From: Chthoniobacter flavus
Lineage (GTDB): Bacteria; Verrucomicrobiota; Verrucomicrobiia; Chthoniobacterales; Chthoniobacteraceae
NCBI GenBank assembly: GCA_945861435.1
Contig: CAMAUX010000031.1
Coordinates: forward strand, 1 to 59,565
DNA: 59,565 bases
Reading direction: 5' to 3'
Positions 33,183 through 44,073 of this stretch are shown piece after piece. The position numbers and the translations under genes are program-made. How positions within the stretch are numbered: position 1 is the stretch's first letter; every line of letters starts with the position of its first letter. The notes beneath the pieces were generated by a model. The model worked only from the letters and a program-made list of their open reading frames with translations. It ran no database searches and was not told the origin of the DNA.

Positions 33183-33232
33183 GCATGGACGACATGGACG
33201 GCATGGACGGCATGGACGGCATGGACGGCATG
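33183..33232 (+). repeat. 9-bp tandem repeat upstream of sulfatase
   Basis: About five and a half copies of the unit GCATGGACG (one copy reads ACATGGACG). The repeat is in frame with the following sulfatase ORF, encoding (Met-Asp-Gly) repeats, and offers a series of ATG codons 70-120 bp upstream of the likely true start. Confidence 0.85.
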
Positions 33233-33304
33233 CGCCCAGTGAGTGCCATGGATGACCCCCGCAACTTCTCCGAATGTACGTGGTTTATTTCCAGCCCTCC
33301 TGTG

Positions 33305-34693
33305 ATGAAGATTTTTCTCCTTCTTATCTCGTTGCTCCTGATGATCGCACCCTCCTCAGAGGCGCGACCGCCGAATGTCCTCGTTATCTTTGCGGATGAT
33401 CTTGGTTACGCGGATCTCGGCGTGCATGGCGGACACGATGTGCCGACGCCGCATCTCGATGCGCTGGCTGCGTCCGGCGTCCGGTGCACGAGCGGCTATG
33501 TGACGGCGCCCTACTGCAGCCCGTCCCGGGCCGGGTTTCTCACCGGACGGTGTCAGACGCGGTTTGGCCACGAGTTCAACCCGCACGTGGGCGATGAGAA
33601 AACCCTGGGTCTGCCGCTTTCGGAGAAGACCATTGCGGATCGGTTGCGGGGCGCGGGTTATTCCACGGCGCTGGTGGGCAAGTGGCACCAAGGATTTGAT
33701 GCCGCCCATCATCCGCAATCGCGTGGGTTTGATGAATACTTCGGGTTTCTGGTGGGCGGGCACAATTACCTGCTGCACAAGGACGCTGAGGCCAAGTTCG
33801 GCTCCGGGCACTCACACGACATGATCTACCGGGGACGCGAGGTGCAGAAGCTGGAGGGATATACGACGGATCTGTTCACCGAAGAGGCGCTCGCTTTTGT
33901 GGACCGGCACCGTGCAGGGCCTTGGTTTCTCTACCTCGCGTACAATGCGGTGCATACGCCGCTGGAGATCGCCGAGCATCTGCGGGCCCGCGTTCCTGCT
34001 GGAATCACGGACCCGGCGAGGCGGGGCTACCTGTCGCTTCTGCTTGGGCTGGATGACGCCATTGGGCGGATCACGGCGCATCTGCGCGAGACTGGGTTGG
34101 AAAAGGACACCCTCGTGTTTTTCGTGAGCGACAACGGCGGGGCGGGTCGCAAGCCGTTCCTTGCGTACAACACCGGGGTCAACGCACCGCTGCGGGGCGA
34201 CAAGGGACAGACCCTTGAAGGAGGGATCCGCGTTCCATTTTTTGTGTCGTGGCCCGGGAAGATCCCCGCAGGCGGCGTCTACGCACAGCCCGCCAGCACC
34301 CTCGACATTCTTCCCACCGCCTGTGCCTTGGCTGGGGTCGATCCGGGTCCGGGAATGGACGGCGTGCACCTGCTCCCTTTTCTTCTTGGTGAAAAACAAG
34401 CCGCTCCGCACGAGGCGCTGTACTGGCGGTTCGGTCCGCAGAAGGCGGTGCGCAAGGGGCAGTGGAAGCTGGTGGATTGGCGGGACTTTGCGACCAAGCA
34501 GCAAAGTGGGTGGCAGTTGTACGACCTCGACGCAGATCCCGGTGAATCCCGCGACCTCGCTGCGCAGAATCCCGTGCTGACAGCCGAGCTCGTAAAGGCA
34601 TGGGAACGCTGGGACGCCGGTAATGCTGCTCCGCTCTGGCACGGCTCGCTGACGGAGGATCCCACGGCGCCTCCGCCCGCCTCCGCCCGCTGA
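33305..34693 (+). CDS. Secreted sulfatase (formylglycine type), copy 1
   Basis: A 462-residue S1-family sulfatase that hydrolyses sulfate esters. The start at 33305 gives a clean signal peptide (MKIFLLLISLLLMIAPSSEA). Metal ligands appear in FADDLGYADLG (about 29-39); the formylglycine site is Cys in YCSPSRAGFLTGR (C-x-P-x-R, about 70); GKWHQG (about 118) and FVSDNGGAGR carry further active-site residues. The substrate is probably a sulfated polysaccharide, but that is inference. The frame is open 40 codons upstream through a 9-bp tandem repeat. A second sulfatase of similar layout follows 81 bp later. Confidence 0.9.
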   Translation: MKIFLLLISLLLMIAPSSEARPPNVLVIFADDLGYADLGVHGGHDVPTPHLDALAASGVRCTSGYVTAPYCSPSRAGFLTGRCQTRFGHEFNPHVGDEKTLGLPLSEKTIADRLRGAGYSTALVGKWHQGFDAAHHPQSRGFDEYFGFLVGGHNYLLHKDAEAKFGSGHSHDMIYRGREVQKLEGYTTDLFTEEALAFVDRHRAGPWFLYLAYNAVHTPLEIAEHLRARVPAGITDPARRGYLSLLLGLDDAIGRITAHLRETGLEKDTLVFFVSDNGGAGRKPFLAYNTGVNAPLRGDKGQTLEGGIRVPFFVSWPGKIPAGGVYAQPASTLDILPTACALAGVDPGPGMDGVHLLPFLLGEKQAAPHEALYWRFGPQKAVRKGQWKLVDWRDFATKQQSGWQLYDLDADPGESRDLAAQNPVLTAELVKAWERWDAGNAAPLWHGSLTEDPTAPPPASAR

Positions 34694-34774: not shown

Positions 34775-36208
34775 ATGACTCCCCGCCGTCTTCTTCTTTC
34801 CCTCGTTGCATGCCCGCTGTTCCTCGCTGCAGCGGAGCCCGCCCGTCCCAACATTCTCCTGATCGTGGGAGACGACATGGGCTATGCCGATGTCGGTTTT
34901 CACGGGTGCAAGGATATCGCCACTCCGCACCTTGATGCGCTCGCGGCCGCGGGTGCACGGTTTACGAACGGCTATGTGTCCGGCCCGTACTGCTCGCCCA
35001 CGCGCGCCGGGTTGCTGACCGGCCGCTACCAGACGCGCTTCGGCCACGAGTTCAACCCGGGCGGCGGCGGCGCCGAGGGGCTGCCTCTTGGGGAGAGCAC
35101 CATTGCCGACCGGCTCAAGGCTGCAGGTTATGCAACGGGCCTCGTCGGCAAGTGGCACCTTGGCAGCCGGGCGGAGATGCATCCGCAAAAACGCGGCTTC
35201 GATGAGTTCTTCGGTTTTCTGGGAGGGGCCCACAGTTATGTGCAGGCGGGTGGAATCCTGCGTGGCAGTGAGCCGGTGAAGGAGCTCGACTACACCACCG
35301 ATGCGTTTGGGCGCGAGGCGGCAGACTTTGTGGGTCGGCACAAGGATGCTCCATGGTTCCTCTACCTCGCCTTCAATGCGGTGCACACGCCGCTGCAGGC
35401 GACGGACGACCGGCTCGCCAAGTTCCCGAACGTGAGTGATCGGCAGCGTCGGACGTACGATGCGATGATGCTCGCGATGGACGAGGCGGTGGGACGAGTC
35501 CGTGCAAAGATTGCCGAGACGGGGCAGGAGAACCGGACGCTCGTGGCGTTCATCAGCGACAATGGCGGACCGACAATGAAAGGCGTGACGGTGAATGGTT
35601 CGATCAACACACCCCTGCGCGGGAGCAAGCGGACCACGCTCGAGGGCGGGATTCGCGTTCCGTTCCTCCTCGCGTGGCCGGGCCGGATCCAGCCCGGCGT
35701 GTACGCGCAGCCCGTGATCCAGCTCGACCTGCATGCCACCGCACTCTCCGCCGCCGGCATCCCCGCTGATCCCGGGTGGAAGCTCGAAGGCGCGAACCTT
35801 CTGCCCCTCCTCTCAGGAGCAGCCAACGGAGGCAGCGGCCACGCACTTCCGCATGACGCCCTTTTCTGGCGTTTCGGTCAGCAGATGGCGGTGCGCAGCG
35901 GCGACTGGAAGCTCGTGCGTTACGATTCGAATGCCGACACCCAAAGCGGGAAGTCCGAACCCGTGACAGCGCCGCGTCTTTACAACCTTGCGACCGACAT
36001 TCACGAGGATCACGACTTGAGCGCTGCGCAGCCCGAAAAGGTGCGTGAACTCCAGTCCCTTTGGGACACATGGAATCAGGCCAACATCCGGCCGCTTTGG
36101 GGAAACCGAGGGGGCGATTCTGATGGTGCGGAACCCGGTGCGCCGGCGAGGCGCGGGAAGCGCAGGGCGGCCAATGGTGGTGTGGACGGGAAGCCAGTTC
36201 AGCCGTAG
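34775..36208 (+). CDS. Secreted sulfatase (formylglycine type), copy 2
   Basis: A 477-residue S1-family sulfatase with signal peptide (residues 1-20, ending FLAAAEP). Active-site landmarks: GDDMGYADVGFHG (about 31-43), YCSPTRAGLLTGRYQTRFGH (C-x-P-x-R), GKWHLGSRAEMHPQKRGF, and SDNGGPTMKG. It is clearly related to the adjacent upstream sulfatase (same 'TRFGHEFNP' after the active site), so the two likely arose by tandem duplication and diverged. The 81 bp between them contain a pyrimidine-rich stretch of CTTACTCTTACTCC type. The C-terminus is Gly/Arg-rich. Confidence 0.9.
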   Translation: MTPRRLLLSLVACPLFLAAAEPARPNILLIVGDDMGYADVGFHGCKDIATPHLDALAAAGARFTNGYVSGPYCSPTRAGLLTGRYQTRFGHEFNPGGGGAEGLPLGESTIADRLKAAGYATGLVGKWHLGSRAEMHPQKRGFDEFFGFLGGAHSYVQAGGILRGSEPVKELDYTTDAFGREAADFVGRHKDAPWFLYLAFNAVHTPLQATDDRLAKFPNVSDRQRRTYDAMMLAMDEAVGRVRAKIAETGQENRTLVAFISDNGGPTMKGVTVNGSINTPLRGSKRTTLEGGIRVPFLLAWPGRIQPGVYAQPVIQLDLHATALSAAGIPADPGWKLEGANLLPLLSGAANGGSGHALPHDALFWRFGQQMAVRSGDWKLVRYDSNADTQSGKSEPVTAPRLYNLATDIHEDHDLSAAQPEKVRELQSLWDTWNQANIRPLWGNRGGDSDGAEPGAPARRGKRRAANGGVDGKPVQP

Positions 36209-37775: not shown

Positions 37776-38209
37776 GATAGGGACAGGGAAAATATTCTCG
37801 CGTCCTCGTCCTTCTCGCGCCCCTGACCGGGGCGCGTCGCGTGGGGAGATGCGATCCGGTGGTTCCCTGCGTCCGCGCTGCGGACTGCGATCACCACCGG
37901 CTATTGGCTCTCATGCCTCCGGCATGCCGGCGTTGCGAGTGCCTGTTGCCTGGTCGGGTTTCCTCAATGAGGCACGAGCGATGCCCTAAACTCGGTGCCA
38001 GTTTTGTCTGTCCCTCAAGCCGCTGAAGCCGAGCGGTCAAGACCGGAAGCTTGGTGCGAGTCAGTGGCGCGCGGTGATTGGGGCGTGCAGGGGATGGAGA
38101 ACGTCGCCGATCGCCGCGTGGCGGACTCTCATTTCCCGTCTCCTTGGTGCCATTGTGCCTTGGTGTGAGAACCCGCGGCTGAAAGCGCACACGACGGCAC
38201 CAAGGAGCC
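37776..38209. repeat. Duplicated non-coding element, unit 1 (434 bp)
   Basis: First of two head-to-tail copies with a 434-bp period. It begins GATAGGGACAGGGAAAATATT and ends GGCACCAAGGAGCC. Inside are a perfect 8-bp hairpin CGCGCCCC-TGACC-GGGGCGCG (37816-37836), a 12-bp palindrome CCGGCATGCCGG near 37918, and a 12-bp inverted repeat CTCCTTGGTGCC (38140-38151) with GGCACCAAGGAG (38196-38207). It encodes no convincing protein; the 61-codon ORF near 37841 is present in both copies but lacks protein character. Confidence 0.85.
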
Positions 38210-38640
38210 GATAGGGACAGGGAAAATATTCTCGCATCCTCGTCTTCCTCGCGCCCCTGACCGGGGCGCGTCGCGTGGGGAGATGCGATCCGGTGGTTCC
38301 CTGCGTCCGTGCTGCGGACTGCGATCATCACCGGCTATTGGCTCTCATGCCTCCGGCATGCCGGCGTTGCGAGTGCCTGTTGCCTGGTCGGGTTTCCTCA
38401 ATGAGGCACGAGCGATGCCCTAAACTCGGTGCCAGTTTTGGCTGTCCCTCAAGCCGCTGAAGCCGAGCGGTCAAGACCGGAAGCTTGGTGCGAGTCAGTG
38501 GCGCGCGGTGATTGGGGCGTGCAGGGGATGGAGAACGTCGCCGACCGCCGCGTGGCGGACTCTCATTTCCCGTCTCCTTGGTGCCATTGTGCCTTGGTGT
38601 GAGAACCCGCGGCTGAAAGCGCACACGACGGCACCAAAGA
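38210..38640. repeat. Duplicated non-coding element, unit 2
   Basis: Second copy, about 98% identical to unit 1; I count fewer than ten substitutions and no indel. It keeps the 8-bp hairpin (38250-38270) and has one mismatch in the right arm of the 12-bp inverted repeat (GGCACCAAAGAG). It ends about 10 bp from the stop codon of pstB2, so the pst transcript must read into it unless it terminates transcription. Confidence 0.85.
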
Positions 38641-38650
38641 GGGAGGAGGG

Positions 38651-39421
38651 TCAACCGTAGCGGCCCTCGATGTACTCGGCGGTCCGGCTTTCGCGCGGGG
38701 TGAGGAACAGATCCTCGGTGCGGGAATGTTCGATGAGTTCGCCGAGCAGCATGAAGATGCACTCGCTACTCGCGCGGCGCGCTTGGGCCATGTTGTGCGT
38801 CACGATGAGGATGGTGTAGCGGCCCGCGAGGCTCCACATCAGTTCCTCGATGGCCCGGGTGCCCTCGACATCGAGGGCGGAGCAGGGCTCGTCCATCAGG
38901 ATGATCTGGGGTTTGAGCGGCAGAAGGCGTGCGATGCAGAGTTTTTGCTGCTGCTCCAACTGGAGGCCGATCGCCCTGTCGTTGAGGCGGTCCTTGAGAT
39001 CCTTCCACAAGCCGACCTCGGTCAGCGCTTTTTCGACCGCGTCATCGAGATCGCGGCGGGAGGGTTTGTTCTCCGAGTGAATGAGGAGGCCGAACACGAC
39101 GTTCTCGTAGATCGAGATGGGAAGCGGGTTGGGGCGCTGGAAGACCATGCCGATGGCCTTGCGCAACTCGATCAGGGAGACGTCGGGGTCGTAGATGTTC
39201 TTGCCCAGCAGTTTGATCTCCCCGGTGGTGGTGACGTTGCCGTAGCGCTCGTTGATCCGGTTGAAGCAGCGGAGGAGGGTGGTCTTGCCGCAGCCGCTGG
39301 GGCCGATGAGCGAGGTGATCATCCCGCTCTTGATGTCCAAGTCGATGCCCTTGAGCGCCTGGAACTTTCCGTACCAGAGCTTCAGGTCCCGCGTGGTGAT
39401 GCTCATCCGGGTGTCGCTCAT
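38651..39421 (-). CDS. pstB: Phosphate ABC transporter ATPase PstB, copy 2 (degenerate signature)
   Basis: A 256-residue PstB, last gene of the phosphate operon. Walker A GPSGCGKT (40-47), Q-loop VFQRPNPLPISIYENV (Gln95), Walker B ILMDEPCSALD (catalytic Glu178) and switch His209 in IVTHNMAQA are canonical. The ABC signature, normally LSGGQ, is LQLEQ here (153-157) although the flanking QQKLCIAR is kept, so this subunit should not complete the partner's ATP site properly. The start ATG at 39421 overlaps the stop of the first pstB copy by 4 bp (ATGA). Taken with the complementary defects in that copy, a heterodimer with PstB copy 1 is predicted. Confidence 0.92.
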   Translation of the reverse strand: MSDTRMSITTRDLKLWYGKFQALKGIDLDIKSGMITSLIGPSGCGKTTLLRCFNRINERYGNVTTTGEIKLLGKNIYDPDVSLIELRKAIGMVFQRPNPLPISIYENVVFGLLIHSENKPSRRDLDDAVEKALTEVGLWKDLKDRLNDRAIGLQLEQQQKLCIARLLPLKPQIILMDEPCSALDVEGTRAIEELMWSLAGRYTILIVTHNMAQARRASSECIFMLLGELIEHSRTEDLFLTPRESRTAEYIEGRYG

Positions 39422-40176
39422 CCGAAAATTCCGTTTACGTAGTCGTAGGTTCTGCGGTCCTTCGGGTTGTCGCTGAAGACCTCGCTGGTGGGCCCGATTT
39501 CGACGATCTCGCCATTCCAAAGGAACATGGTGCGCGCTGCGAGGCGGCGGGCTTGTTGGACGAGATTTGTGACGAGGATGATGGTCATCTCTTTCTTCAA
39601 TTCCTTGAGCACGTCCTCGATGCGCATCGTGGTGACCGGGTCGATGGCGATGCTGAATTCGTCCAGGCAAAGGATCTGGGGGCTGTGGGAGAGGGCGCGC
39701 GCGATGGTGAGGCGCTGCTGCTGGCCGCCGGAGAGCTTCGTGCCGAGGCTGTCGAGGCGGTCTTTGACCTCGTCCCAGAGGGCGGCCTGGCGGAGGCAGC
39801 GTTCGACGATTTCATCGAGAGCGGCGCGCTGGCGGACTCCGGCGTTGCGGGGGGCGAAGGCGACGTTGTCGTAGATGCTGAGCGGCAGGCCGACGGGGAG
39901 TGGGGCGACCATGCCGACCTTGCGCCGGAGGGCATAGACATCCCGCATTTGGGAAACGTCCTCGCCGTCCACGCGGATGGTACCGGTCTGGCGGGTGTTG
40001 GTGGTGAACTCGATGGTGCGGTTGATGCAGCGCAGCAGGGAGGTCTTGCCGCTTTGGGCCGGCCCGATGATGCCGAGGATCTCGTTTGGCTCGATGTGGA
40101 AGCTGATCCCGTGAATGACTTCCTTGGGGCCGTAGCTCAGCCGCAGATTTTCGACCTGTACCTTGGGTGTTACCAT
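39418..40176 (-). CDS. pstB: Phosphate ABC transporter ATPase PstB, copy 1 (altered Q- and H-loops)
   Basis: A 252-residue PstB paralogue. Walker A GPAQSGKT (38-45) and the signature LSGGQQQRLTIAR (148-160) are intact, and Glu173 of Walker B (LCLDEFSIAID) is present. The Q-loop reads MVAPLPVGLPLS: Gln is replaced by Pro92. The switch His is replaced by Asn204 in LVTNLVQQA. The D-loop region also departs from the usual 'SALDP' (SIAIDP). The ATPase should bind ATP but hydrolyse poorly at its own site while offering a good signature to its partner. It overlaps pstA by 7 bp and pstB copy 2 by 4 bp. The ATG at 40176 is chosen; upstream in-frame sequence is inside pstA. Confidence 0.92.
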   Translation of the reverse strand: MVTPKVQVENLRLSYGPKEVIHGISFHIEPNEILGIIGPAQSGKTSLLRCINRTIEFTTNTRQTGTIRVDGEDVSQMRDVYALRRKVGMVAPLPVGLPLSIYDNVAFAPRNAGVRQRAALDEIVERCLRQAALWDEVKDRLDSLGTKLSGGQQQRLTIARALSHSPQILCLDEFSIAIDPVTTMRIEDVLKELKKEMTIILVTNLVQQARRLAARTMFLWNGEIVEIGPTSEVFSDNPKDRRTYDYVNGIFG

Positions 40177-41081
40177 TTTTTGCGTCCGCGCAGCCACGAG
40201 CGGAGGAGGATGGCGGTGAGGTTGACCATGAGCACGAAGCCGAGAAGCACCGTGGCGATGGCGAAGGGGAGGGCGTGAGGGGCGTTGGTCACCTGTGTGG
40301 TGACGGTGAAGAGGTGCATCGACAGGGCCATGCACTGGTCTGCGAGGCCGTAGGCGAAGAAGTTTCCTTCCTCGATTTTTCGGTAGAAGACGGCGCCCGT
40401 GAACATGATGGGGGCGGTCTCGCCGGCGGTGCGTGAGACTTGGAGGATGACGCCGGTGAGGATGCCGCTGATGGAGTTTGGCAGGACGATGTGCCAGATG
40501 GTCTGCCAGCGTGTGGCACCGACATTCCAGCAGGCCTCGCGGAACTGGCGTGGTACGGCGGCGAGGGATTCCTTTGTGGAGGCGATGATGACGGGCATGG
40601 TCATGATCGCGAGTGTGAGGGATGCGGCGATGATGCTGCGGCCCATGTGGGCGAAGAGCACGAAGGCGCCGAGGCCGAAGAGGGCGTGGACGATGCTGGG
40701 AACGCCGGCGAGGTTGACGACGGCGAGGTTGATCACGCGGTTGAACCAGTTGTCCTTCGCGTATTCGTTGAGGTAGACGGCGGCGAGAACGCCGATCGGA
40801 GCGCTGATGCACAGGGAGGTGCCCACGAGCCAGAACGTGCCGAGCAACGCGCTCCAGATGCCGCCCTTTCTCATTCCGCCGACCGGGTTTGTGGTGAGAA
40901 AATCCCACGAGATCAAGGGGGCGCCTTCCTTCACGAGATAGCCGACGATGAGGAAGAGCGGGATGACGATGCACGCGACCATCCCGGCGAAAACGGCGAA
41001 GGCGATTTTCTCGCGGCGGCGCTTGCTTCGCGTGAAGGGAGTCTCGCCGAACGTGACCGGGGGTGGTGATTGGGAGTGCAT
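40170..41081 (-). CDS. pstA: Phosphate ABC transporter permease PstA
   Basis: A 303-residue inner-membrane permease with six predicted helices, beginning with a cytosolic N-terminus of about 27 residues and a first helix at about 28-52. The EAA-type coupling loop that contacts PstB is visible at REACWNVGATRWQTIWHIVLP (about 183-203), followed by SRTAGETAPIMFTGA, typical of PstA. It forms the channel with PstC. The start lies 2 bp after the pstC stop, and the gene overlaps the first pstB. Confidence 0.93.
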   Translation of the reverse strand: MHSQSPPPVTFGETPFTRSKRRREKIAFAVFAGMVACIVIPLFLIVGYLVKEGAPLISWDFLTTNPVGGMRKGGIWSALLGTFWLVGTSLCISAPIGVLAAVYLNEYAKDNWFNRVINLAVVNLAGVPSIVHALFGLGAFVLFAHMGRSIIAASLTLAIMTMPVIIASTKESLAAVPRQFREACWNVGATRWQTIWHIVLPNSISGILTGVILQVSRTAGETAPIMFTGAVFYRKIEEGNFFAYGLADQCMALSMHLFTVTTQVTNAPHALPFAIATVLLGFVLMVNLTAILLRSWLRGRKKW

Positions 41082-41083
41082 CG

Positions 41084-41983
41084 CTACTTTCTATTGATGC
41101 CCCTCACGACGAGGTCGGCGACGAGGTTGACGATGAACGTGAGGGTGAAAAGGAGGATGCCGATGAGGAAGAGCACGCGGTAGTGTGGCGAGCCTTGGCT
41201 GGCTTCGCCGAGTTCGGCGGCGATGGTGGCCGTGAGAGTCCGGACGCTGTCGAAGATGCTGTGCGGCACGTTGACCGCATGGCCTGTCGCCATCAGCACG
41301 GCCATCGTCTCGCCCACGGCGCGGCCCACGCCGAGAAGCACGGCGGCGAGGAGGCCGTTTTTGGCGGCTGGCAGCAGGATGCGGTAGATGACCTGCCAGC
41401 GGGTGGCGCCGAGTGCGAGGGCGCCCTCCCGGTAGCTGTCGGGAACGGCTTTGAGGGCATCCTCGCCGATGCTGACCATGACGGGGATGCTCATCAGGGC
41501 GAGGAGGAGGGCGGCATTGAGGACGTTAAGGCCGACTTGGACGTGAAAGACGGTCTGGATGAGAGGGTTCATCACCGTGAGGCCGATGAAGCCCCAGACG
41601 ATGCTGGGGATGGCGGCGAGCAGTTCGATGATCACCTTGAGGGATTCGCGGAGTTTACCGGTGCAGAACTCCGAGACGAAGACGGCTGCGCCGAGGCCGA
41701 AGGGCACGGCAATCAGCATGGCGACGCCGGTGACGCTGAGCGTGCCGGCGATGAGAGCGAAGGTGCCGTAGCGCACGTTGCTCATCGAGGTGGGATACCA
41801 CTCCGTGCTGGTGAGGAAGCGCCAGAGGTTGAAGCCCGGCTCCCGGAGGATGGGGGCGCCCTCGCGGAAGAGGAAAAAGAAGATCGCGAAGACGAAGATG
41901 ATCGCGCTCACGCCGCAGATGCGGATGAGCCATTCGATGGCTTTCTCTCCGTAGAGACTGAGCTTTGAGCGCGAACTGATCAT
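41084..41983 (-). CDS. pstC: Phosphate ABC transporter permease PstC
   Basis: A 299-residue permease with six predicted membrane helices (first at about 20-41). PstC landmarks are FREGAPILREPGF early in the protein, IPSIVWGFIGL (about 126), the coupling loop GALALGATRWQVIYRILLP (about 185-203) and GVGRAVGETMAVLM. It pairs with PstA to translocate phosphate. It lies 60 bp after pstS on the minus strand. Confidence 0.93.
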   Translation of the reverse strand: MISSRSKLSLYGEKAIEWLIRICGVSAIIFVFAIFFFLFREGAPILREPGFNLWRFLTSTEWYPTSMSNVRYGTFALIAGTLSVTGVAMLIAVPFGLGAAVFVSEFCTGKLRESLKVIIELLAAIPSIVWGFIGLTVMNPLIQTVFHVQVGLNVLNAALLLALMSIPVMVSIGEDALKAVPDSYREGALALGATRWQVIYRILLPAAKNGLLAAVLLGVGRAVGETMAVLMATGHAVNVPHSIFDSVRTLTATIAAELGEASQGSPHYRVLFLIGILLFTLTFIVNLVADLVVRGINRK

Positions 41984-42043: not shown

Positions 42044-42952
42044 TTACTTCGCGTCCTTGGGAGCGAAGGCTTCGAGCGGGATGTACCCGTTTTCGATCAC
42101 CAGTTTCTGGCCGGGCGCGGACAGGATCCACTTGATGTAGGATTCGACCTCGGGCTTTGCGGCCGGGGGCGTGTACATGAACATGGGGCGTGAGATGGGA
42201 TAGCTCTTATCGAGCGTGGAGCGGATGCCCGGCTCGACTGCGGGCTCGCCGGTTTTCTTGGAGACCTTGAGGACCTTGACCTTGTCGGTGCGGTAACCGA
42301 TGCCGCTGAAGCCGATGGAGCCCGGGGTGCCGGCGACCAGTTCGACGACTTCCTTGGAGCCGTTCATGTCGCGCGAACCCGCTTTGAAGTCGTTCTTCTT
42401 TCCGACCACAGCCTCGCGGAAATAGTGGTAGGTGCCGGAGTTGTTCTGGCGGCTGGCGCGGACGATTTCATCTGTGCCTCCCGGTGCAGCGATGCCGAGT
42501 TCGCTCCACTTGTTGATCTTCCCGCCCTCCTTGTAGATCTCGCTGAGCTGTTCGATGGAGATTTCATTCAGGGGGTTGCTCGGGTGCACGTAAATGGCGA
42601 GGGCATCCCAGCCCACTTGGTGCTCGGTGGGGTGCTTGCCCTCGTACTTTGCGGTGGCTTTCTCCTCCTCTTCCTTTTCGAGTTTCCGCGAACTGTTGGC
42701 GATGTCGCAGGTGCCATTGATGAGGGCCGCCACACCGATGCCGCTGCCTCCGCCGGAGACTTCGACAGAGACACCTGGGACGGCGTGCGCGTATGCCTCG
42801 GCCCATGCTTGGGCGAGGTTGACCATGGTGTCGGAGCCGATGTTTTGAAGCGAGATGCCGGCAGGCTTGCCTTCGCCGCTGCCCTTGCCGCCACAGCTTG
42901 CGAGCAATGCGGCAGCGAGGATGGTGGTTGTGTGGGTGAGGATACGTTTCAT
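42044..42952 (-). CDS. pstS: Phosphate-binding lipoprotein PstS
   Basis: A 302-residue periplasmic phosphate-binding protein. A lipoprotein signal ends at the lipobox LLASC (Cys about residue 19), so it is lipid-anchored. Phosphate-contact regions are seen at NIGSDTMVNLAQAWAE (about 36-51), VSGGGSGIGVAALINGTCD (about 63-81) and ASRQNNSGTYHYF (about 165). It delivers phosphate to PstCA. The start used is the ATG giving MKRILTH; a GTG 19 codons upstream is less likely. It follows the phoU-fusion gene after a short gap and precedes pstC. Confidence 0.93.
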   Translation of the reverse strand: MKRILTHTTTILAAALLASCGGKGSGEGKPAGISLQNIGSDTMVNLAQAWAEAYAHAVPGVSVEVSGGGSGIGVAALINGTCDIANSSRKLEKEEEEKATAKYEGKHPTEHQVGWDALAIYVHPSNPLNEISIEQLSEIYKEGGKINKWSELGIAAPGGTDEIVRASRQNNSGTYHYFREAVVGKKNDFKAGSRDMNGSKEVVELVAGTPGSIGFSGIGYRTDKVKVLKVSKKTGEPAVEPGIRSTLDKSYPISRPMFMYTPPAAKPEVESYIKWILSAPGQKLVIENGYIPLEAFAPKDAK

Positions 42953-42975: not shown

Positions 42976-44073
42976 TCAGGCAATGCGGTCGCCGAGGACG
43001 GCGTCGCACAGTTCGGTAATATGTTCCCGGAGGAAGTGGTATGCGGACTCGTACGCGGCGCTTTTTTCCTCCGGGGTGCCGGTGGCAAGCGACGGGTCGG
43101 GAAGGCTCCAGTCCAGGCAGATGGCCTTGGTTGGTTTCGGGAACGCTTTTTTCGCCGCGGGCGAAAGGGCGACGATGATCTGCGAAGCGTCGAGGTTGGG
43201 GAGTTGCTCGACGCTGCGGGTGGTGACGTTGGAAAGGGCGACCCCCTTGTTCTGCAGGAACTCCACCGTGCCGGGATCGATTTCGGTGGGGGTGAGGCCG
43301 GCGCTCGCGAACACAAACTGCGGGCGGTTCATGGAGTTGCCAATGGCCTCGGCCATCTGGCTGCGGCAGCAGTTGCGGTCGTCGATGAAAACCATCCGCC
43401 AGATTTCCCCGGTGAGTTTCCGGGGGTATTCGCCGGTGACCATGTAGATGACCTCTTCGCAGATATTCGTGGCCTGATCGGACACGCGCTCGAAGCGACG
43501 GGCGATGGTGGTGAGCGGGGTGAGTGCCTCCAGCGGGATGCGATTTTCCTGACGGAGCGCGAAGAGTTCCTTGTCGATGCTGTTGCGGAGGGCGTCCACC
43601 TCCTGTTCGCGGGAGATGACGTCGCGAGCCAGAGCCTCGTCTCCTGTGACGAACGCCTTCACGGCGTCGCGCAACATGGGGATGCTGAGGCTGCCGATCT
43701 GCTGGAATCGATCGAGCGGGATGTAGCTGTTCATCCCGGCCAGTTTCAGAGTCTGCCGGGCGATGCTTTCCGCGTAGTCGCCGATGCGCTCCAGCTCGAG
43801 GTTCACGCGGATCGTGATGTAGGCGAAGCGAAGGTGCCGTGCGACCGGTTGCTGGCGGATGATGAATTCGAGGCAGAGCCGGTCGACTTCCTTCTCCAGT
43901 TCATCGATGCGCCGGTCGCGGAGGATGACCGTGTAGGCGAGCTGGCGGTCGACTGTTGCCAGCGCGGTCAGGCATGCCTGAAGAGCATTTTCCGCGAGTT
44001 TCTCCATCTCGGAAATCTTCGTCAGGATCCGGTCTATGTCCTGTTGGAGGGAGTCTTCGTAGTGGGAAGGCAT
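42976..44073 (-). CDS. phoU: PhoU fused to an inactive LMW-phosphatase/ArsC-like domain
   Basis: A 365-residue protein. Residues 1 to about 217 form a complete PhoU, with two three-helix repeats and metal-binding E/D-x3-D motifs (ELERIGDYAESIA near 94-106, RRFERVSDQATNICEE near 192-207). PhoU represses the Pho regulon and restrains Pst uptake. From about 224 to the end lies a low-molecular-weight phosphatase/arsenate-reductase-like domain with P-loop FIDDRNCCRSQMAEA (229-243). The nucleophile Cys of this family aligns with Asp231; the two redox Cys of thioredoxin-coupled ArsC align with Ser304 and Phe311. The oxyanion-binding loop with Arg237 is kept. I infer a phosphate-sensing pseudo-enzyme. 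It is the first gene of the pst operon. Confidence 0.88.
   Translation of the reverse strand: MPSHYEDSLQQDIDRILTKISEMEKLAENALQACLTALATVDRQLAYTVILRDRRIDELEKEVDRLCLEFIIRQQPVARHLRFAYITIRVNLELERIGDYAESIARQTLKLAGMNSYIPLDRFQQIGSLSIPMLRDAVKAFVTGDEALARDVISREQEVDALRNSIDKELFALRQENRIPLEALTPLTTIARRFERVSDQATNICEEVIYMVTGEYPRKLTGEIWRMVFIDDRNCCRSQMAEAIGNSMNRPQFVFASAGLTPTEIDPGTVEFLQNKGVALSNVTTRSVEQLPNLDASQIIVALSPAAKKAFPKPTKAICLDWSLPDPSLATGTPEEKSAAYESAYHFLREHITELCDAVLGDRIA

Follow-up and report, generated by a model that had tools for sequence, protein, structure and literature searches.

A split-motif pair of PstB homologs in pst operons of Verrucomicrobiota and Acidobacteriota, and its predicted assembly into an asymmetric phosphate importer ATPase

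Introduction

Phosphate pumps are normally driven by two identical ATPase subunits, and most descriptions of ABC importers are of symmetric machines that use two ATP. The PstB entries in the PDB each contain two identical chains by their chain counts (9k3x and 9k3y, two entries with four chains; 9k3s, one entry with two). In an ABC dimer each ATP site takes its Walker A, Q-loop, Walker B and switch residues from one subunit and its signature from the other. A pst operon of Chthoniobacter flavus (assembly GCA_945861435.1) ends in two adjacent pstB-like genes, and each product has lost motifs that the other retains. The question is whether these genes encode two separate ATPases, a duplicate on its way to being lost, or the two unlike halves of one importer. 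The stretch of DNA analysed, here called the window, is contig CAMAUX010000031.1; it is 59,565 nucleotides long, is one complete contig, and belongs to a 5.35-Mb genome in 105 contigs. A first-pass annotation of this DNA had proposed a heterodimer whose two ATP sites differ, one being consensus and the other degenerate.

Results

The pst operon and its two pstB genes

All genes of the operon are on the minus strand, in the order phoU-pstS-pstC-pstA-copy 1-copy 2, so that the PstB copies close it. PhoU (42976-44073, start chosen at MPSHYED) ends in a fused LMW-PTP/ArsC-like domain (42979-43407) in which the catalytic Cys is missing. It is followed by the phosphate-binding protein PstS (42044-42952, start chosen at MKRILTH), PstC (41084-41983) and PstA (40170-41081). 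PstB copy 1 (PstB1, 39418-40176) has 252 amino acids and copy 2 (PstB2, 38651-39421) has 256. This gene order was also found in 36 of 43 named loci; of the remaining seven, five lack phoU and pstS, and two lack copy 2 in the stretch examined. The best NCBIfam model for both copies is PstB, TIGR00972, with 319.4 bits for copy 2 and 282.4 bits for copy 1. Both scores are below the curated cut-off of that model (343.2 bits), which places the two proteins outside the PstB equivalog, and by this measure they are divergent PstB relatives.

A 434-bp tandem duplication (two copies, 98% matches) occupies positions 37776-38641, directly downstream of copy 2. Elsewhere in the window, the 9-bp repeat GCATGGACG (5.6 copies, 33183-33232) lies at the start of a frame that was assigned as sulfatase-like by reading (33185-34693), and would give its product an MDG-repeat leader if the first ATG is used. 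A similar second frame follows at 34775-36208.

Motifs are split between the two copies

When the translations were read again, every residue that the first-pass annotation had assigned was recovered. Copy 2 has a canonical Walker A, Gln95 in the Q-loop, the Walker B Glu178 and the switch His209, and its signature is LQLEQ (residues 153-157, 38951-38965) in place of LSGGQ. Copy 1 has a consensus LSGGQ (residues 148-152, 39721-39735), with Pro92 at the position of the Q-loop Gln (codon 39901-39903) and Asn204 at that of the switch His (codon 39565-39567). Copy 1 has additional changes that the annotation had not listed: the middle Gly of Walker A is replaced (GPSGCGKS to GPAQSGKT), DEP is DEF, the D-loop SALD is IAID, and the NPF after the Q-loop is VGL.

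These features were followed in a set of 128 copy 1 records, reduced to 89 non-redundant genes at 99% identity. The partner of each was taken to be the closest PstB-like frame that follows it on its own strand, and the signature played no part in this definition. A partner is present for 87 of the 89 genes; the other two (L079 and L080) stop at contig ends. One partner (L273) ends before its signature, leaving 86 that are readable, and one copy 1 Walker A is unreadable, leaving 88.

LSGGQ, the Q-loop Pro and the switch Asn are each present in all 89 copy 1 genes. Their Walker B is LDEF without exception, so that the Walker B Glu (E173 in the window) is always retained, and the 88 readable Walker A motifs have all lost the middle Gly and kept the Lys. 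The partners show the converse. Both signature glycines are absent from 86/86, with L-E or L-D in their place; 62 have QLEQQQ, 12 SLEQQQ, 5 SLEEQQ and 7 other sequences. The Q-loop Gln and the Walker B Asp-Glu are found in all 86 partners and the switch His in 85, the single exception being a Tyr in an acidobacterial locus (L218). The split that the annotation had suggested looking for in related operons is therefore found in every readable pair, and a pair in which both paralogs keep the consensus, which it had named as evidence to the contrary, does not occur among the 86. A sequencing error at the signature, also raised there, is ruled out by the recurrence of the same split in five related genomes and in the 89-gene set. 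Separately, four of the 89 copy 1 genes have the P-loop GPAQSAKTS, in which the last glycine is also gone, a further degeneration in the same site.

A comparison by alignment column (89 copy 1, 86 copy 2 and 75 canonical PstB rows; positions at least 90% conserved in the canonical rows) gave the same division. The losses of copy 1 fall in Walker A, the Q-loop with the NPF that follows, DEP, the D-loop and the switch, and none falls in LSGGQ. Copy 2 has lost both signature glycines, the Arg four residues later, the Gln three residues past the switch His, and scattered other residues; the Q-loop Gln, Walker B and switch His are retained. Its Walker A differs at just one position, by a conservative replacement of the Ser after the Lys with Thr. 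Copy 1 shares this replacement, and also a Phe to Leu change five residues after the Q-loop Gln. The cis motifs of a degenerate site are thus lost in copy 1 and its signature in copy 2, with one exception: the copy 1 D-loop, expected to face the consensus site, is also altered (SALD to IAID or IAVD), and for this reason the split is not perfectly complementary.

PstB proteins outside the split pair gave a different result. Thirty-three single PstB proteins from the phylum, hand-picked from match lists (13 from genomes with the pair and 20 from others), have the consensus at all five motifs in 33/33 cases. Adjacent pstB pairs occur in 5 of 26 Bacilli genomes, and all ten of their proteins are consensus; copies 1 and 2 are not such a tandem pair of consensus proteins. 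Both PstB paralogs of E. faecalis likewise retain the motifs, according to the accessible part of PMC12096839.

Spacing of the two genes

The reading frames of copies 1 and 2 share 4 bp (39418-39421), as had been annotated, and this overlap had been taken as support for obligate pairing. The argument holds fairly well, and is not general. By predicted starts, an in-frame copy 2 start codon that gives exactly the 4-bp overlap is available in 47 of 87 pairs, and other short overlaps, several of them 8-29 bp, are possible in about 20 more. In five of the 87 pairs about 280-1051 bp separates the genes. The spacing therefore favors coupled expression in most pairs, not in all.

Extra DNA of about 295 bp lies between the copies in L010 (2266-2560) and, at identical coordinates, in L011, and about 736 bp in L013 (759-1494). 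On an impression from its sequence, the L013 insert looks like a small element of the toxin-antitoxin type. The copies are also far apart in L043 and L119.

Distribution

Tandem genes of this split type occur in soil and water bacteria, within the pst operons of Verrucomicrobiota, of Acidobacteriota and of some further groups. Among 37 other related genomes, five hold both genes, each with the same split. A scan with the copy 1 alignment over 84,980 species, one genome per species, gave 67 loci. Copy 1 is present at 64-87% identity in 43 of these (L039-L080 and L093). The other 24 (L081-L105 minus L093) are distant; an ABC ATPase frame could be read in 16 of them, none with the split, and eight have no frame above threshold. 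The taxa on the labels of the 43 loci, which can be wrong, are Verrucomicrobia and subgroups, Acidobacteria, Holophagae and Thermoanaerobaculaceae, and also Chitinispirillaceae, Polyangiaceae, Lentisphaerae and one alphaproteobacterial metagenome-assembled genome. By such labels, most of the named relatives are metagenome-assembled genomes.

A sample of the class comprised 384 genomes, of which 27 have copy 1, and a 28th (G128) has a copy 1 cut at a contig end. The scores in this sample are bimodal, with 350-558 bits for the 27 and at most 263 bits among the other matches listed. A sample of the phylum had copy 1 in 7 of 387 genomes; the class and phylum counts both include the genome of the window. 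The count for Acidobacteriota is 29 of 297 genomes, two already known carriers included. Two genomes, G661 (of L070) and G663 (of L076), appear to hold two split pairs each, and one of the pairs in G663 is cut at the contig start.

Phylogeny and selection

Phylogenetic reconstruction used 83 rows, namely 78 PstB proteins, among them both copies from 20 of the 89 pairs, and five ABC ATPases of the amino acid type. The PstB rows, both copies included, separate from the five with 100/100 support. Copy 1 forms one clade and copy 2 another, each with 100/100 support and both inside PstB, in a tree whose bootstrap had not quite settled. Neither clade contains a Bacilli row, and the deeper branching is poorly supported. 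Because each copy forms a single well supported clade, the split appears to have a single origin, and either to be old or to have moved between phyla.

Both pstB genes are under purifying selection. In four comparisons for each gene dN was 0.07-0.13 and dS 0.69-0.99, and dN/dS is well below 1. Sixteen of the 27 pair genomes have a canonical PstB elsewhere. The other 11, the genome of the window among them, have no further PstB at or above the TIGR00972 cut-off, and their next match has at most 197 bits. The pair must therefore do the work of PstB in these 11, unless a gene is missing from an incomplete draft or another importer has taken over.

An altered coupling helix in PstA

The coupling helix (EAA) of PstA in the window is REACWNVGA, with W185-N186 encoded at about 40524-40529. 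The Trp is present in all 71 pair loci, as Trp-Asn in 70 and Trp-Ser in one (pair loci are counted for PstA and PhoU per locus, duplicates included). It was found in none of the 30 readable single-pstB operons (33 examined) and in none of the 25 readable Bacilli and other loci (33 examined); E. coli PstA has Tyr-Ala at the corresponding position. The PstC coupling helix is ordinary in the window (REGALALGA), and PstC showed no comparable shift between pair and other loci. In the class sample the pair-type PstA is found in 28 of 384 genomes, and these are the same 28 that have copy 1 (G128 included).

In type I importers a groove next to the Q-loop receives the coupling helix. This points to copy 1, whose Q-loop groove is altered, as the subunit that would dock on the altered PstA helix, with copy 2 on PstC. 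The PstA change is probably a single evolutionary event, and for this reason it serves as a consistency check and not as independent covariation.

A pseudo-phosphatase domain fused to PhoU

The C-terminal domain of PhoU in the window matches PF01451 with an E value of 6.5e-8. PhoU lies in the stretch examined at 52 of the 71 pair loci, and 48 of these 52 proteins carry the fused domain; those at L145, L147, L148 and L271 are ordinary. What we take to be the position of the catalytic Cys, assigned from the C(X)5R motif, is Asp in 45 of the 48 domains, Glu in two and Gly in one, and in none of them Cys. The Arg of the P-loop is retained in 25 of 48. These substitutions suggest that the PhoU of pair loci usually (48/52) carries a pseudo-phosphatase, that is, a dead LMW-PTP/ArsC-like domain. 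None of the 29 PhoU proteins found at the 33 single-pstB loci has the fusion. Matches to the domain of at least 92 bits occur in 27 of the 384 class genomes, namely 26 of the 27 pair genomes (all except G224) and G128, and the next-best match has 66 bits. Within this 384-genome sample the domain hardly occurs outside genomes that have the split PstB pair.

Discussion

These features are best explained if PstB has been divided into two specialized subunits that would together form the ATPase half of the Pst importer. We infer an obligate PstB1-PstB2 heterodimer under PstC-PstA, in which one ATP site is consensus and the other degenerate, and assign this reading a probability of about 0.85. Since each site combines cis elements from one subunit with the signature from its partner, only the heterodimer would provide a consensus site; either homodimer would have no complete one. 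The consensus, hydrolyzing site would consist of the cis motifs of copy 2 and the LSGGQ of copy 1. The degenerate site would consist of the cis motifs of copy 1 and the LQLEQ of copy 2, and would bind nucleotide with slow turnover or none. Even this site may hydrolyze, because copy 1 keeps the Walker B Glu (89/89) and the Walker A Lys (88/88 readable). Copy 1 would lie under the PstA coupling helix and copy 2 under PstC, and coupling to transport would presumably be affected. AlphaFold models of the monomers, made from six-row alignments, had mean pLDDT values of 41.7 (copy 1) and 40.3 (copy 2), and no claim is based on them.

Other arrangements have to be weighed against the heterodimer. The PstB paralogs of E. 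faecalis have non-overlapping roles, and extra PstB2 compensates for the loss of PstB1 (PMC12096839, accessible part), which is the precedent for two separate homodimers, each serving PstCA, with their non-consensus motifs tolerated. The E. faecalis proteins retain their motifs, unlike copies 1 and 2. In the present case signature glycines would be missing from both sites of a copy 2 homodimer, and both sites of a copy 1 homodimer would lack the Q-loop Gln and the switch His; moreover, 87 of the 89 copy 1 genes have a downstream partner and the other two are at contig ends. Two homodimers are in our judgment improbable. About equally improbable is a division in which one copy drives transport while the other, a regulatory pseudo-ATPase, stays outside the importer core and acts for instance with PhoU and the Pho two-component system. 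An interaction of PhoU with PstB is known (PMC12096839, accessible part), and the extra pseudo-phosphatase domain in the PhoU of most pair operons indicates that signaling parts have changed too. However, the set of motifs is incomplete in both copies, so the one left in the importer would need to function as a homodimer with non-consensus motifs, and the altered PstA helix points to a change within the importer core itself.

Decay after duplication, with one or both copies being lost, would account for the four copy 1 genes of 89 that lack the last P-loop glycine (GPAQSAKTS). It is contradicted by conservation, as the Pro and Asn are invariant in 89 copy 1 genes from several phyla, dN is far below dS, and 11 of 27 genomes have no other PstB at the cut-off; we give it hardly any credence. 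The heterodimer accordingly remains the preferred reading. A bolder extension of it is that these operons encode a separate, asymmetric class of Pst importer, in which PstB1 is locked to the PstA helix and the non-hydrolyzing site has a regulatory or sensing role that is read by PhoU, whose pseudo-phosphatase domain, present in most pair operons, may sense phosphate. We put this forward tentatively and think it rather doubtful as it stands. If it were true, one ATP would be used per transport cycle and signaling would be split onto the second site.

A consensus/degenerate split that is strictly conserved in an importer would allow a test of whether one hydrolyzing site suffices for import, and of the purpose of the second. 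The pair also offers a natural means of telling which PstB belongs to PstA and which to PstC. The Pho regulon receives the phosphate status from Pst and PhoU, and for this reason the pair may in addition separate transport from signaling, which is hard in the canonical Pst system. Degenerate ABC sites are already known. A split-motif PstB pair appears to be new: among the matches listed in the open-licence literature, by their titles and the beginnings of their abstracts, no description of one was found, which is weak evidence for absence.

Compared with the canonical PstSCAB system of E. coli and most bacteria, copies 1 and 2 have the same operon partners and belong to the same sequence family. 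The difference is that the canonical PstB homodimer is built from one consensus subunit, and here there are two divergent subunits with the motifs split between them. The tandem PstB genes of Bacillota (PstB1/PstB2 of E. faecalis, PstBA/PstBB of B. subtilis) are adjacent, as here, but both of their copies keep the motifs and copies 1 and 2 do not.

CFTR and TAP are ABC exporters of the heterodimeric type with a degenerate site. Heterodimeric exporters with one degenerate site are established in TM287/288 and BmrCD, and the TM287/288 substitutions affect Walker B and the switch of one subunit (PMC4046567, accessible part). These exporters have two different NBDs and one consensus plus one degenerate site, the arrangement proposed here for an importer. 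The likeness to TM287/288 and CFTR that the first-pass annotation had drawn holds for this layout and fails residue by residue. Copy 1 keeps E173, and the non-canonical Walker B of the TM287/288 type is not found, Asp-Glu being present in 89/89 copy 1 genes; what copy 1 has lost is its Q-loop Gln and its switch His, and the partner has lost its signature. A survey of B. subtilis modeled PstBA/PstBB as one NBD pair, and described RbsA and NupO as importers with fused NBDs and one degenerate site (PMC11466899, accessible part). The latter two resemble the proposed pair in being importers with one degenerate site, and differ in being type II, with both NBDs in one chain. Among their changes, the second domain has lost its Walker A Lys, the residue that copy 1 keeps.
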